This document shows, piece by piece, positions 1 to 43,351 of a stretch of DNA of 64,000 nucleotides. The stretch comes from Sanderia malayensis. Taxonomy: Eukaryota > Cnidaria > Scyphozoa > Semaeostomeae > Pelagiidae. The translations under genes and the position numbers were made by a program. The notes below the pieces were generated by a model that worked only from the letters and a program-made list of their open reading frames with translations, had not been told where the DNA came from and did no database searches. The DNA lies in contig RQOL01000636.1 in assembly GCA_013076295.1 (NCBI GenBank), positions 186,001 through 250,000 on the forward strand. The letters run 5' to 3'. Position 1 is the first letter of the stretch. Every line of letters starts with the position of its first letter.

Positions 1-2110
1 AGTGTGTCTATTACATCTTGAAAAAGTTGCCTCTTAGGCCCCCGGGCATCGATCACTAAGCCCACATTCACAGGTATTGGTCTGTTTTCAGCATAATCAG
101 GGCCTTTCAAATATGCTGGTGCTGCTGCAAGTGACTCTTCAGGATGGGATATCTTGATGAACTTTGTAGCAGCTTTAAGTTTCATTGCCATTATGCAGAT
201 AATCATTGCCAGCATCTATCTTTTACAATCCATCCCTTTCAATGTTACACTCATCTTCTGTGAAGTGAGTTAGCTCTATCAGCTTCGGTATATGGTCTTC
301 CTTTAACTCTACATTGTTTGCCACTGTCAATGCATCATTAGGTTTTGATGCAAATTCAGCAGACGTAGATGCACAACACAGGTCATCAACTGGAGTATCT
401 ACCACGATTTCATCATCAACACTACGGCATTCTTCGGTGTGGATTTGATAGTTTGAAAATTTTATGGCTGAAAAACAATTTTCACATTGTATTTGTGGAT
501 CTTCATCACATTGTGAATTTTGGTCCTTAAAAAAGAGAGGCAACAGCATAGGTATAAGAGACTTGACAATATTTGTTGTTGCAAAATCTTGAGATCAGAA
601 AAGAAGTTTACTCAAAAGCACTGACAGTGCCGTATAAATTATATTCAGCATTATTTTGTACAATAAATTTTACATTTAACGAAATAAAGATTATTTTGAC
701 CAAAATACAGTATAGTGGACAAAAGGAGACACTTTACTACCCTCATCACACACTCATCACACTCACTTAACACTCATCACACTCGAATACATTACAATGA
801 TACCAGACACATGGAAACAATGTGACAACTCAGTGTGAATTTAAATGGGTTAAACCAAGCGACCATGCAACTACTAATAGATTGTGGTATTAGAAAATTT
901 ACCTTGTCTTCATTGCTGTTGGTGCACTGTTGATGATGTTCTCGCAATTGGTCTATTGGAATCTCTACAAGGCACCCCAAGCATAGATTGGAACATCTGG
1001 AAAATAATAATACCACTAAACAAGGGATACTAAATGGATTGAAAATGCAATAATATGATTTCAGGTTTTTAGATAATACTGCAATAAGAAGAAAAATACA
1101 GTATTATGTAAAAACACAACAACCATAAATTTGCATAACAAAATAGCACAACCTTAATGGTAGACCCCCCAGGGGTCAACCACAGTCAGGCAAGCACAAG
1201 ATAACAGATTCCCAACTTTGTTTACTTATTGATAATATGTCACAGTAGTGATGACAGGAAGTAGTTGAAATACTACCAGTTATCTGATTCACAAATATAT
1301 ATTGCATTGCCGGTATTGCAGATTTGTGGTACTTACCATGGGATGCTGCGGTGGAACTTTTGACATGGAAAGGTTCATCTGTATTGGTATAATGTATCCC
1401 AGAGCAGACCCAAGGCCACTGAGATCCCTCAAGAGTATAACAGAATATCCACTATGAGGTGGAATAAGCAGTTGTAATGTTTCCTTCGTACCTTGTGATC
1501 GCAGTATGTCAAACCCTCCACATCCCTGTAATTTGGGATATATATTTTTCCAGTTCCATGGCCACACGAGGAGCATCCCCATCCTGCGTGAAGGTAACCT
1601 TTTTCCTTCCAAGACCAGCTTCACCTAATGCTAGTTTGCTTTTTGATTTGGAGGGTATGATGTGTTAGCTTTGGACAAACAAAAAAAATCAAGTGTCCAA
1701 GTCTCTTTGACAGAAGGTTTTCCCTGACTACGCCATCCTCTGCCCCTTCCATTTTTTGATACAGGTCTCCCTGGGCGTCGATCTTGTGGCCTGCTGTATG
1801 GCGCAAATAAGCTTCTAAAATTCTGCCTTGCCAACAGCTGCTGATGGACAGGTCCTGTTGATGTTGATGCAGCAGCATCTAATGAGTTGTTGGGCATAGA
1901 AAAACTTCTGATTGTTGACCCTTGTATATTGCTGCTATTTCTGCTTGGTCCACTTGCATTACCAGGAGTATTATTGTCAGTAGTTGTTGTACTTCTACTA
2001 CTGGCATCCTGTATCATCCGCTCTGCAATATCCATGATTTGGAGCAATCTCTGGTCACCTTCGCCATTATTCCGAAATACCATCTTTTTCGACCATGCTG
2101 CTATTCCCAC
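1..2110 (-). pseudogene. Degenerate HECT-type ubiquitin ligase-like gene with two C2HC zinc fingers, 3' end off the window
   Basis: Read on the minus strand from about 2110 down. The first part (2110-1631) is Ser/Thr/Asn-rich and ends in a conserved-looking FFCLS...SYPPNQK block. It runs on after a frameshift near 1640 into a GEAGLGRKKVTF segment, then after another near 1555 into GGFDILRS...LRDLSGLGSALGYIIP (to about 1337, followed by a GTAAGT donor). Zinc-finger-like exons follow: CSNLCLGC...HHQQC (1016-890) and CENCFSAI...HTEEC (549-223), both C-x2-C...H-C. From about 200 to 1 the frame reads PVNVGLVIDARGPKRQLF, which resembles the start of HECT domains (D-x-GGP-R-FF). This order is typical of multicopy G2E3-like genes of invertebrates and fish, which would transfer ubiquitin to unknown substrates. 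The catalytic HECT Cys lies outside the window. The frameshifts may be decay or assembly errors. Confidence 0.5.
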
Positions 2111-2205
2111 CGGAAAAGATAAGCAGCAGGTGGGCTACTACCTCACCGAAATAATTATTTGGAATGTTAGAAAATGATGAAGGGTGATTGATATTTTAGA
2201 AATGT

Positions 2206-2400
2206 CGCAAAGGTCATTGAAATTTTAGAACTAACCTTGCATGAGAACACAGAGTGACTGAAATTTTAGAAATGTTTCACAGGTCACACAGAATTCAAAA
2301 CATGAGTGATTAACATTTTAGAAGTGTTGCGCAAATGAATGCAACTTTAGAACTTAGCCTGCATGATTAGATGAGTGCAATTTTAGAAATCTAGTGGCGC
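2206..2400. repeat. Degenerate short tandem repeat with ATTTTAGAA core
   Basis: The core ATTTTAGAA recurs about every 25-40 bp, with related words (GAAATGT, CACAGGTCA, GCATGA) between. The same TTTTAGAA word recurs at 3139-3152 and 3369-3380. No coding signal is seen. Confidence 0.45.
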
Positions 2401-3390
2401 AAGTGGGGGCTATTACTAAAAAGGGGAAAGGAGAGGAAAACAGAGGAAAGGGGAGGAAAGGGGAGGAAAACAGAGGAAAGGGGAGAAAAGGGGCGGAAAG
2501 CAGAGGAAAGGAGAGGAAAGGGGGAAAACGGTGGATCTAGACCAAAATCTGACTGGTGCAATTTATGGGTTTTTAGGGCATGTCCCAAGGCTTTCGTAAA
2601 CTGCCACACCCTTTGACAGACAACACGTAATCATTCTGACTTAACAAGTGTTTTAAAATATTTCTTTCATTGTTTAGAAGAAGCCTTAAAGTAAAACCAC
2701 TCTTCGTAAAATTGGCCTAGCTTTTACAGCAATATATGCTCTGTTTGATATAACCTGTCAGTCCAGCTGTGAATGTCATCGGTCAATTATAATATACCGC
2801 AGAAAGTGTAAATATCAATGGGATTCATTGTGGACTGCGAATAAATAATTTCCTCTGCACTTATTGTGTTGCAAACTATATGTTGTGTGAACGTTATCTT
2901 TAATCGATTACGTCACTGCCTTTGGGGGAATCTGACTGGTGCAGTTGCACCAGTTGCACCAGTCCAAATCCGCCCCCCCCTAGAAAGCACGCCTGTTCAT
3001 TTCTTGTTATTGGTTGAATTATCTGTCAATGTTAATTACTATTTCCATTTCAATTCGTAATTTTTTTTTCATATATACTTCTTTTAGCTGTTAGGTTCAT
3101 GTTCAGCTACACCATATACTTTATATGTACAAGTGGGTGAACTTTTAGAAAACAAACGCCCAAAAACAATACGTACATATAATTTATATGGTGTAGCCGT
3201 GTTGACATGTAAATTCCTGGAATAGACCACCATAGATTTTTCCTAAAATAACAGATTCCTCCCCTTTCTTCTGTTTTCCTCCCCTTTCCTCTGTTTTCCT
3301 CCCCTTTCCTCCCCTTTCCTCTGTTTTCCTCTCCTTTCTCCTTTTTAGTAATAGCCCGCAAGTGGGTGAACTTTTAGAAAACAAACGCCA
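2397..3390. repeat. Foldback structure with purine-rich and pyrimidine-rich inverted arms
   Basis: The left arm (about 2400-2530) is an imperfect array of GGGGAGGAAA/ACAGAGGAAA. The right arm (about 3250-3358) is its reverse complement, CCTCCCCTTTCCTCTGTTTT. Both arms end outward in the same words (GGGCTATTACTAAAAAGG on the left, its complement on the right). The block AAGTGGGTGAACTTTTAGAA plus following bases is present at 3131 and again at 3361, a direct duplication flanking the right arm. The interior (2540-3250) has no supported gene. It could be a non-autonomous foldback transposon. Confidence 0.5.
3107..3196. repeat. 24-bp near-perfect inverted repeat (hairpin)
   Basis: Arms at 3107-3130 and 3173-3196 are complementary apart from two bases (each begins CTACACCATATA read inward). 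They enclose one copy of the duplicated AAGTGGGTGAAC block. It may be a tiny MITE or stem-loop. Confidence 0.55.
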
Positions 3391-36654: not shown

Positions 36655-38589
36655 TTGTTAAAGGGCTTATGCAGCCAAAAATGACCTACCGTTTTTTAAC
36701 TGAAATGGAGAGAATTTAACGTGCTCAGAAGCATGCCGCAAATAGAATTTGAAAACATTTTGTAGTTTTTGAGTTATTCATTGCCAAAGTAGGCATTTTG
36801 GACAACTTTTTTCAGAAACTGTGACATCACAGTGATGCCCGATCCCAGACACCCCTGTGAACCGCGGTCAACAACACGCTGGTCAGAGTGAAATTTTTAG
36901 AGTGGTTCTTAATAGCTACGTACTTTTTGCATTTTGGCAAAATGGCAACGAAATCTACTGCAAGACCTAAATTTCACGGCCGTTCATGTGTTGCCGGGGG
37001 ACCGAATGGAGAAAGTTGTACAAACACTCAGTTTGTAGATAATGTCTCTATAATGTCTAATGTCTTCATAAGTTCCCGAACTGTTTTTCAAATCCAACGC
37101 TGCATCGTGTTTGGGTGGAGTTTGTTAGGAGACACCGCAAGAACTGGCAGCCCACACCAACATCTTCGTTATATTCCATACACTTTGAGGAATCTAGCTT
37201 TTCGGTCAATAAAGAAATCGCAAGACAGCTTGGCATCAAGATAAGTCTGAAACCAGATGCCATCCCCATGATTGATGTGGCAGTCAGGCCTAAAGAGTCT
37301 GCTGATGTCAGTGAACGAAATCGCAGAATGGTATGTACCAGTTTGGACTAATATACCTAGAAAACAACAACAATAACTGTGTAAATGCATTATAGATAGT
37401 TTTTATTTATTACAGACACTGGTTGATACTTTGGATGATGATAGTTTGCGTGATGGTGACACTTGCGATGAAAAACAACAAACTATAAATGCAATGAGAA
37501 GGTCACTTTGGTATTACAAACAGAAATTAACAAAACTAAATGAACAAAATAGAGTAGGTGATCTAGTTATACACACATTGTGATTTTGTTAGTTACTCAT
37601 TTTTCATTTCTTTATCTGCAGTCACCTGTTGATGAGGATCATCTAGATGACATGTCCACCTTTCATGAAGAAATGAAGGAGGAGCTGCACAATTATGCCC
37701 AGGTGATAGATGCTGCTGATGACATAACAGATACAGATTGGTCTTCTTGTGAAGAAGATATACCAGAGGATGGTTGTGGCACTAATTCAAGCATCAGGTA
37801 CCTTAAACATGACAGTATAGATGCTTGTATTACAATAAGAGCCACTTGGCCCCACACATTCATCATATGTAATGACTACTCAATTGTTTGCAGTGTTCTT
37901 CCTGATACAAGACCTACCCATGAGCCACAATGTGTAGTATTTCTGGGCATGCTGCTATCAGTATTCAACATGTTTTGCTTCAAATGCAAGGCAGAGAAGC
38001 CCTCTGTTAAAATTAAAAGAAATGGCACAATGGCTATAGTGATACAGTCATGTAACCACTGTGTAGACAAAGTGGCAGAGCCAGCCGTTTGCATTTAATT
38101 GTCTTCCCGCTGGCATTATCATAATGTGTTTTGGTAGCAGTCAAGTTTGTTTTTCAACAATCCATGTAATGGTGAGTATCTCAAATTGAATAGCAACATT
38201 ACAATAACTTCTTCTTTTTTTCAGGTATTTGGGTATATGGGTTTATGCAGCATTTCACTGAGGACATATTTTGCACACCAGAAAAGATTATTATTTCCGT
38301 CCATTTCAAAGGACTGGAAACACTATCGTGCTCTGCTGATGGAGAAGGTAGCAGCCATAGAAGATCCTGTATGGTCCGGGGATGGACGTTTTGATTCAAT
38401 GGGACATAGTGCTAAGTATGGAGCTTACTACCCTGGGTACCAGAGCCTCATAAATAAATAATTAAAATTAAAATTAGAAGAAGAGAAGAAAAAGGAAGAA
38501 AGAGAGAGGCTCTGGTCAAATGGTAACGTCGATTGTGGGGATTGACCAATGAAAAGCCTATATACCCATATTGGAATATAAATTTGATT

Positions 38590-38685
38590 GGCTAATGCGA
38601 GTCACATGACAGGTATTTGATTTTGTGATTGTGTGTGATCAGAAAACATGATTCATCGCATGGCATTTGACCAGTTGTTGATAAA
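38590..38685 (+). promoter_or_regulatory. Candidate promoter between the left end and the RecQ-like gene
   Basis: An inverted CCAAT (TGATTGGCTAAT) near 38587 and CACATGAC words lie within 100 bp of the ATG. A direct CCAAT and TATATA occur at 38546-38564 inside the subterminal region. Confidence 0.25.
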
Positions 38686-39234
38686 ATGGAGACTGAAAGT
38701 TTGAAGCGAGCTGTGGATACTATACTTTCAAGATTTTTTAGTAAAATTGAGAGTTTAACTGCACAGCAGTTTGAGATATTGAAATCTTTATTTGTGCATT
38801 GTAAAGATACACTTGCTATACTGCCAACTGGTCATGGAAAATCATTACCGTTTCAAGTTGCACCTTTTATCGCTCACGGGATTGGAAGGCCCGAAGCTGA
38901 ATCTAAAGATATTGTCATAGTTGTTTCACCTTTATTCGCAATCATGGACACACAGGCGAAAGAATTAAACAGACTTGGAATTACATCATGTTGCTTGCAT
39001 GATGAATCATTGAATACGAAGGCTTTGAGTGATGGAAAATATCACATCGTCTATGGCACCCCAGAATCCTGGACACAAGGTGAATGGTGGAAAATGCTGC
39101 ACTCAAAAACCTACCAAGAGAAAATCCTTTTGATTGTTGCTGATGAGGCCCACTGCATTCCGAAATGGTGGGTTTTCTCTCCCAGTATATATGTCATATA
39201 TATTTGTTTTTACGTTTTACCAAAACTAGACTAG
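38686..39234 (+). pseudogene. RecQ-like SF2 helicase, N-terminal RecA lobe only
   Basis: ATG at 38686. LTAQQFEILKSLF fits the helicase Q-motif region. Motif I is ILPTGHGKSLPFQV, Ia is IVVSPLFAIMDTQAKEL, Ic is YGTPE and II is LLIVADEAHCIPKW. RecQ proteins normally continue WGHDFR, but the reading turns to WWVFSPS after a likely donor (GTGGGT at about 39169) and no second lobe, zinc or HRDC region follows. The next 350 bp are AT-rich with GCTAGC repeats. The gene was therefore deleted internally, probably making this copy non-autonomous. Confidence 0.75.
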
Positions 39235-39529
39235 CTAGCTAGTCTATTTCATTTTAAATATATAGCTAGCTAGATATAGCTAGCTACTGTATAATTGAAT
39301 AAAAACAAGAAAGAACAATATAGAAATTGTGCAAAAAAATTCTTGACTTCAATAATCACTCAGAATAATACACTCGGGATATAGAATACATAGCAGACAA
39401 AACATGCAATTTGAGTTTTGTTTTAAGATTATTTTGGTAACCTGTTTATTTTCTTTTTTGCATCCGCCTCTTTGACCATTTTAGTATGATGTACATTATA
39501 ATCAGTATATTTACTCAAAATTAATATAG

Positions 39530-41521
39530 TTATTTGGAATAGGTTTTTACAAGTTTCTTTTTTTGATCTTTCAACCAGTTTATTAGTGATGATACAGCCA
39601 GTGGTGAAAGCAAATTTCTTTCAAACTTATTAAAGTGTTCATGTTCTCTTCCTGGGGTCAGCTTGAAAACTTTCTTAGATAGTAGATTTTTGACCAGATG
39701 GTCAAAATCATTTTTCTTGCTTTTAACTTTGTGATGTCCACTGGGCATTGTCGTTGTTAGATCTTTGTCTGTGGACTCAAGCATTTTCTGAAGAAAGTCC
39801 AGTGCATGTGATTCACGCTTTGCATTTTTTTCGTTGAGGTTTACTCCCAGATTATGTAACAGCTCTTTCGTAAGGCAGTTAAGCTGTTCAAGTCTCAGGT
39901 CACATGAAATGTTTCGACCTTTCCCCCCTTTCCTATTCACTGTTCTATCCCAAACAAGTTGTTCTGCTTCTGCTGGTGGTGATATGGCTTCCACTCTTGC
40001 CAACAGTAAAAATGCTGCATATGCATATTTATGATGCTTGTATGCTTTGAAATACAGAAGGAAGAACCTCCAACACCTAATGATCCGTTTTCCATCCCCC
40101 TCTTTAACGGCATCCTCTGCATTTCTTATAAGCAATCCAAGATTTAGTCTTGATCCTGCATAATTAAGAACATCATCTTGTTCCATCTCACCACATGTTT
40201 TATCTTCTTTATTCTCTTGGACCTCAAAGGAATGTATTTTGACTTCATGGCTAGCCCGAACTTTTTTATTTCGGTATTGCTTTGTGCATCCAGGAAAGCG
40301 ACATGCAAATGACATGGTTTGTCTTTCTTGATCAGCAGTTGTGACACTTTGCTGGATGTCAGCAACATGTTCCATGTTCTTACCAATAATAAAATCTTGC
40401 ACCAGTTTCTTCACATGGCCTATGAACCATTCTTGCTTTCTTTCATTGCTTGCGCAAAGGATCATTGGGGGTATAACATTCTCTGAGGGGCTGTCAATGT
40501 CATCAATCCCAAAGTATGTCATAGCCAATGTGGTAATGAGAGCATCAGTTTCAAAATTGACATAATCTTTACATGCATTGAATTTATCTAAAACATTTCC
40601 CCTTGCATTGCTGTTTCTTACCAGATTCATGTTGTACTCCATTGATGCTATATCTTTGGATGAGTTTGGATCATAAAATATTTCAAACAATATCTGAAGG
40701 AAGAAAGAACAATGTCTATAAATGAAGCTAAATTTCAATCATGTCTACATTATTTATCTTTTTTAGGCTGCTCCTGTTTGGTAAACCTTTTTTTCTAGAG
40801 AGTTTAAAACAATTTGCAAGAGCTTAAAAACAATTTGCATACACTCAAGTTAGAATGTAAAATTGTGTATCCAATAACTTAATGGCTGTATCTCTTTTTT
40901 AAAATGAATTTTTGACATGAAAGAAACATTTAATATAAATGACACATAAATGTATTTAAATATTTATATGAACTAAGTTGTTTTGATTGCACAATCTCCA
41001 TAGAAATTCATAGAAATCATAGAAATTATGTTCACAGGCATCTAGCTTATATTTGAGGTGATATGGTACTATTTTTTGTAGCAGTTGTGCCAATTAAGGT
41101 CTGTAACATCAAAAGTTTTTGGTGTTACAAAAGTTAGCAAGTCAGAGTTTGCCTTTCTTGTATGATTAGCCACAATACTCAGGGCAATTGACCAAAATGT
41201 TAATTTTTTATGGCTAATAAAAGAATGGAGATACTTTTTGAAGAAACTTACATGGTAAATATATCGAATAGCATGCCAATCTTCATTTTTAGTTATCAGG
41301 CCATCCAAACGGTCAAACTCCGAGTCAGCCTCAGACATTGCTCCCTGGAGGTTTCTTCCCCTTTCTTCAGTGAGATTGTCTCCACCAAAAAATATCTTTT
41401 GTACAACTGTTTTCTTTTTTGTTTGTTCATTTTCTGTATTGCTGACATGGCAAGGTACATATCTTTCTTGGATGCTTTGCATTATATCAATCATTTCTGC
41501 ACCAATTGATTCATTTTTCAT
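39530..41521 (-). CDS. DUF6589-like transposon protein with an internal C2H2 finger
   Basis: Upstream exon (41521 to about 41252, donor GTAAGT): GGDNLTEERGRNLQGAMS and RLDGLITKNEDWHAIRYIYH, matching a G-D-x-LT-x-ER...DwH pattern. The main exon starts at 40693 after a CAG acceptor and runs 387 codons to 39530. It contains a C2H2 finger CRFPGCTKQYRN...HEVKIH and then WDRTVNRKGGKGRNISCDLR plus LEQLNCLTKELLHNLGVNL. The last block matches my recollection of DUF6589 (N-G.GkNI..DL..EhlN...K..l..lG.N). The family is known from fungi and invertebrates with no established function. The main exon is open throughout; the N-terminus appears cut near the element end. Confidence 0.6.
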
Positions 41522-43351
41522 GATAAGACCAATGATGATAATGATTTGGGCAAAAAGTGATTGATTGCAAGAAGTGATTGAATTGATTCATATCATGCAA
41601 CTTGAAACGAAAACGAGGTTGTGTTACCATTTGACCAGAGCCTTATTTCTCTCTTCTTTTCTTTTTTTCCTCTTCTTCTTTTTATTTAATTAATTTATGA
41701 GACTCTGGTACCCAGGGTAGGAGCTTACACTATGTTATGCAACTCAATATCCAAGATGGTGCACTTTGCATTAGTACAGGTTAGTTAAAATGTTGTCTAT
41801 CTTTCTTTGCATAATTGTTCTTCCACACATGTTGCTGCAACCCTATATTTGTTCTTCACAGGCAAATGAAACTGGCAGCAGCACTGGGACAGAGTTTGAA
41901 GGGTGCAAACGTGCCTTTTCATTTCTGAAGGTTTCTGGTCTTAGAATTAATTCGTTTATCTGTGACCACCACAAGAGCATCGCAACGTGGATAACCAGCC
42001 TGAAACTGAACATTACCATGATTTGTGGTATGTTTGTAAAAGCATCACAAAGAAAATGCTGAGTATTGGTAAAGAGACAGGATGTGATGCTATACATGGT
42101 TGGATCAAAGGCATACGGAACCATCTTCTCTGGCCAGCACAATCAACAAAACAAGGATTTGGTGATCTGATTCTTGCTAAGTGGAAGTCCATGATACGCC
42201 ACATTTCAAACAAGCATTGTGAGCATCCTGACAAACTCTTTGACAAATGTGCTCATGGCGACATTGAAGAACGTGATTACATCAACTCTGGTAGGGAGTG
42301 TTGTAATAAAGTTATTTTTTGTTTGCCTTGTTTATGAATATGACTATTTCAAGTCTGCCTTCTTCCATAGGCTCACATGCATATGAACGACTGTATTCTG
42401 TGACCATGAATGCTAGAATACTTTCCGGAATAAAACACGTATCATCTGATGCTCAAACAAGTTGTTTGGAAAGTTTCCACTCAACACTAAATCATTGGCA
42501 TCTGAAGATGACTCATTTCTCTTGACCTGGCACATACTGCAGGTAAATTGCAAGGCCTTATTACTCAAGGAAGATGTCTATGTATGTACCAAATTATGTA
42601 TTTTTTGACCTGTGTTTTCATTTTTCTCAGGCATGTGCTAGCTATGATGCATTTTAATGAAAATGTCAAAAGAGAGTCACGCCAAGCCAAAGATGGCAGC
42701 GTTTATTACAATGTCACTTATCCCAAATTCAAACTAGGGGAAGAGGTAGTATGAGAAGACGCTGTTCCACCCACATATGGTATACCTTATTTGCATGTAT
42801 CCAGTATATTTGCATTGTTCTTGACCACACATCGGCTTCTGATATTCTTCATCTGCTATGCAAAAATTATATTTGTATACACTTTTCTTTCAGAGTATGT
42901 TAATAGTATTAAAGAAATGATGTTCTCTATATATTTGAATGATTTGCAAGCAACTGTGGATGAATATATTGCTGCACGACCAGATCCACTGTGTGCACAA
43001 TTTGACAGCAGAGCGTCAAAGGCTCCTGCTGTGCAGCAATGTAAAGAGAAGCAGCAACTTCAAACAACTAAATTTCCTTGTGGTAGGTCTACACTTAGAC
43101 TTGGAAATATAAATCTCTGGTTATAGCATGCAAATTGCAATTGGTTTAAATAACAACCTACATTCCTTTTTAGAATCAGAACAACTTTTCTTGGAGGCAC
43201 TTAATGAAATGCCAACTCCAGCCCCAATCTCAACATTTGAAAGAAGAGCAAGGCACTGCAGAAAGTGCCACATGCCCACGAGAGGGCATCTGAGGGGAAA
43301 TTGCTCCAACCAAAAATAGTTTTTTTTATTATTTTTATTATTTTTAATTAC

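Follow-up and report, generated by a model that had tools for sequence, protein, structure and literature searches.

The element and its insertion site

We analysed a 64,000-nucleotide stretch of the Sanderia malayensis genome (hereafter the window; assembly GCA_013076295.1, contig RQOL01000636.1, C591:186001-250000 in our contig numbering), in which an element of 3291 bp (window positions 38429-41719) interrupts a repetitive host gene and carries part of a RecQ-type helicase gene together with part of a convergent gene for a DUF6589-like protein (Table 1). The terminal 17 bp of the element are identical in inverted orientation (17/17; 38429-38445 against 41703-41719) and belong to inverted repeats of about 100 bp, which contain gaps and are 83% identical over 97-99 bp. 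Within the left repeat the motif ACCAGAGCCT (38439-38448) appears again, inverted, as AGGCTCTGGT (38507-38516), and such an inverted pair is found at each element end, the one at the right tip containing a single mismatch. An exact 9-bp target duplication flanks the element, and a paralogous gene on C45 provides the empty site, matching both flanks (C45:888744-889949 and C45:887285-888752) with an overlap of exactly 9 bp; for a more distant paralogue on C303 the flank matches overlap by 8. When the flanks were joined in silico, the host frame remained open across the joint. The original prediction, made from the letters of the window, had argued from the ends, the duplication and the restored host frame that this is a mobile unit, and the empty site bears it out.

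The interrupted gene (window 37115-42700) is multi-copy and THAP-like, with many partial relatives genome-wide. It contains the motif GDGRFDSMGHSAKYG, which we take to be reminiscent of Kolobok transposases, so that the window element may be a transposon within a transposon.

Table 1. Features of the window and related elements elsewhere in the genome. Plain positions refer to the window; positions with a C prefix refer to other contigs.
Feature	Position	Strand	Details
Interrupted repetitive host gene (part)	37115-37348	+	partial THAP-like domain; E 0.00029, 22 bits, below the Pfam cut-off of 23.9
Left target duplication	38420-38428		9 bp, GGAGCTTAC; exact match to right copy
Left terminal inverted repeat	38429-38527	+	first 17 bp equal to the other end
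RecQ-type helicase exon 1	38686-39167	+	lobe 1, GHGKS and DEAH boxes; predicted donor GT at 39168
DUF6589 predicted transposase, exon E (last)	39530-40693	-	C2H2 finger; third predicted catalytic residue, E of DLRLEQLN
DUF6589 gene, exon D	41252-41532	-	5' end truncated by deletion; second predicted catalytic residue, D of GGDNLT
Internal deletion joint	41532-41533		element positions 1-3104 fused to last 188 bp
Right terminal inverted repeat	41623-41719	-	
Right target duplication	41720-41728		9 bp; exact match to left copy
C303 copy	C303:1392448-1402015		9568 bp; 9-bp duplication GAGGAAAAT
C430 copy	C430:165917-178583		12667 bp; 9-bp duplication CCAGCAGGC
C815:201650 copy	C815:201650-205301		about 3.65 kb, right tip degenerate; 9-bp duplication TGTTTCTTG
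C464 element			6580 bp; 58% identity in the last transposase exon; duplication GCCCAAAGA
C815:99828 element, near relative of C464	C815:99828		6856 bp; duplication GCATTCACT

Longer copies encode a two-lobed helicase and a five-exon DUF6589 protein

A DNA search of the species' own genome (a 184-Mb assembly of 918 contigs) returned three further copies with 98-99% identity to the window copy, the two longest of which exceed it by 6.3 and 9.4 kb, nested inserts counted. Lobe 1 of the window helicase is 98% identical to that of a sister copy, which matches both PF00270 and PF00271, and the two DUF6589 exons that remain in the window match their Pfam family (PF20231) with E values of 2.9e-23 and 3.3e-5 (C591:225731-226702 and 227192-227539). 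Helicase exon 2, which encodes lobe 2, and exon C of the DUF6589 gene, which carries the first predicted catalytic residue, lie in the portion that the window copy has lost. The window copy derives from a longer element by internal deletion. The cargo had been named correctly in the original prediction, which had also proposed that the second helicase lobe is missing here and that full-length relatives should exist; both lobes are indeed present in the C303, C430, C464 and C815:99828 copies, and the 9.6- and 12.7-kb copies (C303 and C430) hold a five-exon DUF6589 gene as well.

In the C303 copy, helicase exon 1 (lobe 1) is followed about 3.5 kb further on by exon 2, which encodes lobe 2 and a cysteine cluster; the two splice in frame (PKW joined to GEM), with one in-frame stop. 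The product falls in the RecQ family (TIGR00614, E 5.7e-61, yet 206.7 bits against a cut-off of 219.8) and its match in the PDB is WRN (E 2e-37). On the opposite strand, five phase-0 exons, one of them with a GC donor, make up a DUF6589 gene that is open over 1116 amino acids and matches the family in two exons (E 2.6e-24 and 1.4e-8). In the C430 copy, each of the two genes is interrupted by frameshifts or stops.

The predicted exons of the C303 gene pair interlock. Their order is helicase 1, transposase E, D and C, helicase 2, transposase B and A, which places transposase exons E to C within the predicted helicase intron and helicase exon 2 within the predicted transposase intron between B and C. 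The C464 and C815:99828 elements have the same exon order, and canonical splice sites were seen for the C464 helicase. Among 19 helicase/DUF6589 pairs, all of them on opposite strands, four show lobe 2 where interlocking would place it, on the 5' side (C303:1396708, C430, C464 and C303:4313683, the last assigned from positions only; C815:99828 lies outside the 19), and the other 15 are arranged tail to tail. This simple tail-to-tail layout is the commoner one and probably also the older.

Both long copies carry additional DNA. The C430 copy is longer because it holds a nested insert of 4469 bp with its own 8-bp duplication (CTGCCATG), ends CAGAGGTGGAAA and one 976-amino-acid open frame without a Pfam match (C430:173351-176278, equal to L012:352-3279); from its duplication and ends, this insert is presumably hAT-like. 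The C303 copy has an extra insert of about 1.4 kb (about C303:1399260-1400630; L009/L010), which is absent from C430 and has GACTCGCGA and TCGCGAGTC near its ends. The C303 copy itself lies within a frame that by eye resembles a Helitron helicase (C303:1391926-1392477, equal to L009:1479-2030).

The gene pair and the ends recur across the genome

Six copies longer than 3 kb have these ends (window, C303, C430, C464, C815:99828 and C815:201650), and 6/6 hold helicase and DUF6589 sequence, in line with the original prediction; among the copies read, none had a standard transposase in place of the two genes. Allowing at most one mismatch, we counted 94 occurrences of the end motif TACCCTGGGTWCCAGAGNCT across the 184 Mb and none of its reversed form, which excludes a chance origin of the ends. 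They can be matched into 31 pairs that face each other within 15 kb, and 23 of these span less than 300 bp. We surveyed duplications at the flanks of 24 of the 31 pairs and of the C815:201650 copy (n=25) and found an exact 9-bp duplication in 16, eight matching positions of nine in 8, and none in 1 (L074). Several copies share flanks and so represent copies of one insertion in a larger repeat; at the 16 distinct sites that remain after grouping by eye, the duplication is exact at 10, matches at 8 of 9 positions at 5 and is absent at 1. The 18 short copies that were read measure 112-229 bp and are too small for coding. Seven 112-bp miniatures (L059, L062, L063, L070 in reverse, L071, L072 and L075) have identical flanks, so that a larger repeat seems to have spread this miniature through the genome.

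The genome-wide scoring covered 29 of the 343 RecQ candidates and 102 of the 159 DUF6589 candidates, and the resulting counts are therefore lower bounds. For at least 19 of the 26 RecQ clusters, a DUF6589 match is found no more than 10 kb away, and the genome contains at least 103 DUF6589 matches, 98 of them above cut-off, with none in 14 named control genomes. The best 30 of the 103 matches were taken with 1.5-kb flanks; four of them are copies of the window family, and the paralogues on C464 and C815 are also among them. A helicase is present at 25 of these 30 loci, in every case (25/25) located 3' of the DUF6589 exon and encoded on the other strand; at L016, L027, L030, L040 and L041 none falls within the 1.5-kb flanks, and at L016 it lies 1.5 kb away. 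The helicase and DUF6589 pair recurs in many diverged families, and the two genes are very unlikely to be separately captured host fragments, an outcome that the original prediction had named as one that would count against it.

DUF6589 is a predicted DDE transposase

AlphaFold models of two DUF6589 relatives resemble the P-element, Hermes, ISCth4 and RAG1/Transib recombinases, with P element and Hermes matching at least as well as ISCth4, and they show a predicted acidic triad and a predicted RNase H core in which a helical insertion precedes the catalytic E. Because the models resemble known DDE recombinases, we consider it well supported that the DUF6589 protein, as the original prediction had suspected, is a recombinase of the DDE type. 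A Pfam search of the element proteins at E values up to 0.1 returned no standard transposase family, only DUF6589, helicase models and weak unrelated matches, and profile comparison of DUF6589 with solved transposases found no link, giving just five weak zinc-finger matches. When the protein search was repeated from an alignment, two lancelet proteins were the only additions; the cnidarian and lancelet DUF6589 proteins are mostly labelled uncharacterized, hypothetical or DUF6589, a term that we did not find in the literature searched. The possibility that the helicase is itself the mobile enzyme was dropped, as nothing spoke in its favour.

A second group in the same genome, defined by long open reading frames (L079-L081, C787), also matches DUF6589 (E 6.2e-10, 1.7e-8 and 1.2e-6). 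Its conserved C-terminal block contains, by eye, EADT, DTDVLVL and GCDTT-like motifs (GCDTT in two of three rows), which suggest a PIN/XPG-like nuclease. The Pfam model 5_3_exonuc_N matches this C-terminus in one of the three only (E 0.014), and searches of the PDB and against a host XPG exon gave no match. XPG_I was discarded as a DUF6589 partner, since none of its four genome matches lies near DUF6589. The C787 element (C787:366827-372977), the only one of the group with both ends read, is bounded by inverted repeats of 424 bp and has ATA on both sides as a 3-bp duplication, a match of a length that has a chance probability of 1/64; at one end of a C45 copy the match ends short of the tip. 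A profile comparison of the helicase group with the long-frame group gave E 1e-4 at 58% probability over 101 columns in the region of the catalytic E.

Interpretation and alternatives

We are highly confident that the window element is an internally deleted DNA transposon, most likely AcademH and likely mobilized by cut-and-paste, whose longer copies encode a RecQ-type helicase and a DUF6589 protein as predicted DDE transposase. The ends, the 9-bp duplications, the empty site, the longer two-gene copies and the miniature derivatives are all observed. We place the element in AcademH rather than in a new class, by published description and not by sequence, because a helicase combined with a 9-bp duplication is the published AcademH signature: according to a 2023 study, AcademH duplications measure 9 or 10 bp and AcademX duplications 3 or 4 bp, tied to helicase and nuclease, respectively (PMC10045372). 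Academ is also counted among the DDD/E superfamilies in a second article (PMC9587614). The novelty implied by the original prediction is overstated, as helicase-encoding transposons with 9-10 bp duplications are already known as AcademH.

It is unlikely that the element represents a separate, undescribed superfamily of helicase transposons that merely resembles AcademH. The interlocked helicase and transposase genes and the absence of DUF6589 from the literature searched would suit such a superfamily, as would the descriptive basis of the AcademH assignment, no AcademH sequence or domain description having been found in that literature. Against it stand the agreement with the published AcademH signature (PMC10045372) and the same-genome DUF6589 relative (E 6.2e-10), which unites a C-terminus that looks nuclease-like by eye with the 3-bp duplication of AcademX. 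The groups with helicase and 9-bp duplications and with nuclease-like domain and 3-bp duplication mirror the AcademH/AcademX split, so that Academ is the likely home of DUF6589.

We regard as very improbable a Mutator-like element (MULE) that acquired a helicase: MULEs likewise have 9-bp duplications and long inverted repeats, but Pfam gives DUF6589 and no MULE model at E values up to 0.1, and the structural matches to P element and Hermes are at least as good as that to ISCth4. Least credible of all is that both genes were captured as fragments from the host and are mobilized by a different transposase that has gone unrecognised, as the single lobe and two exons of the window copy and the lack of a standard Pfam transposase might suggest, given that longer copies extend the genes to both lobes and five exons, that the pair recurs across many diverged families, that the DUF6589 models resemble DDE recombinases, and that the 9.6-kb copy has no other open frame above 130 amino acids wholly inside it (floor 70 amino acids; smaller frames were not compared between copies).

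For the AcademH-like transposon, we envisage that the transposase would pair the ends, excise them and join them to a target site cut with a stagger of 9 bp, the DUF6589 protein being the predicted agent of cutting and joining on the basis of its fold and triad. The helicase would act after cutting, either in end opening or in strand displacement during repair of the donor gap from a sister copy. We favour the latter role by analogy, as the Drosophila RecQ helicase BLM is required for repair after P-element excision, and because interrupted gap repair would leave products such as the window copy, deleted internally but intact at both ends. Having lost helicase lobe 2 and the exon with the first predicted catalytic residue, the window copy would be mobile only if a longer copy supplied the proteins. 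A broader proposal, which we offer tentatively and consider doubtful as a whole, is that DUF6589 is the DDE core of helicase-partnered transposons, one branch of which interlocks transposase and RecQ exons on opposite strands, and that their own BLM/WRN-like helicase steers donor-site gap repair so that a cut-and-paste element copies itself back.

If DUF6589 is indeed the transposase, an unannotated family with at least 103 matches in this genome becomes a transposase with a testable active site, and gene annotation in cnidarians and lancelets would improve. The element also lends itself to the questions of why DNA transposons would encode a RecQ helicase and of how opposite-strand genes with interlocked exons can be expressed.

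Comparison with known transposon systems

Helitrons create no target duplication and have no terminal inverted repeats; the window element has both. KolobokH targets the 4-bp sequence TTAA, whereas the targets seen here are of 9 bp and varied. KolobokH is a DDE transposon with a RecQ helicase, described from fungi only and with the helicase downstream of the transposase (PMC9587614). The DUF6589 models share with the P element, hAT (Hermes) and RAG1/Transib the predicted RNase H core and its helical insertion. Duplications measure 8 bp in the P element and hAT and 5 bp in Transib, and we know of no helicase gene in any of these three.

AcademH, which its founding paper (Kojima, 2020) is said to place in animals and fungi in its title, has in common with the window element a helicase, 9-bp duplications, terminal inverted repeats and a predicted DDE transposase; the window branch differs in its interlocking helicase and transposase exons, a comparison in which AcademH is known here by description alone. 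AcademX carries a nuclease, of the XPG type, in place of the helicase and differs in duplication length, and the C787 element is likely an AcademX element and a sister of the AcademH-like element in the window.

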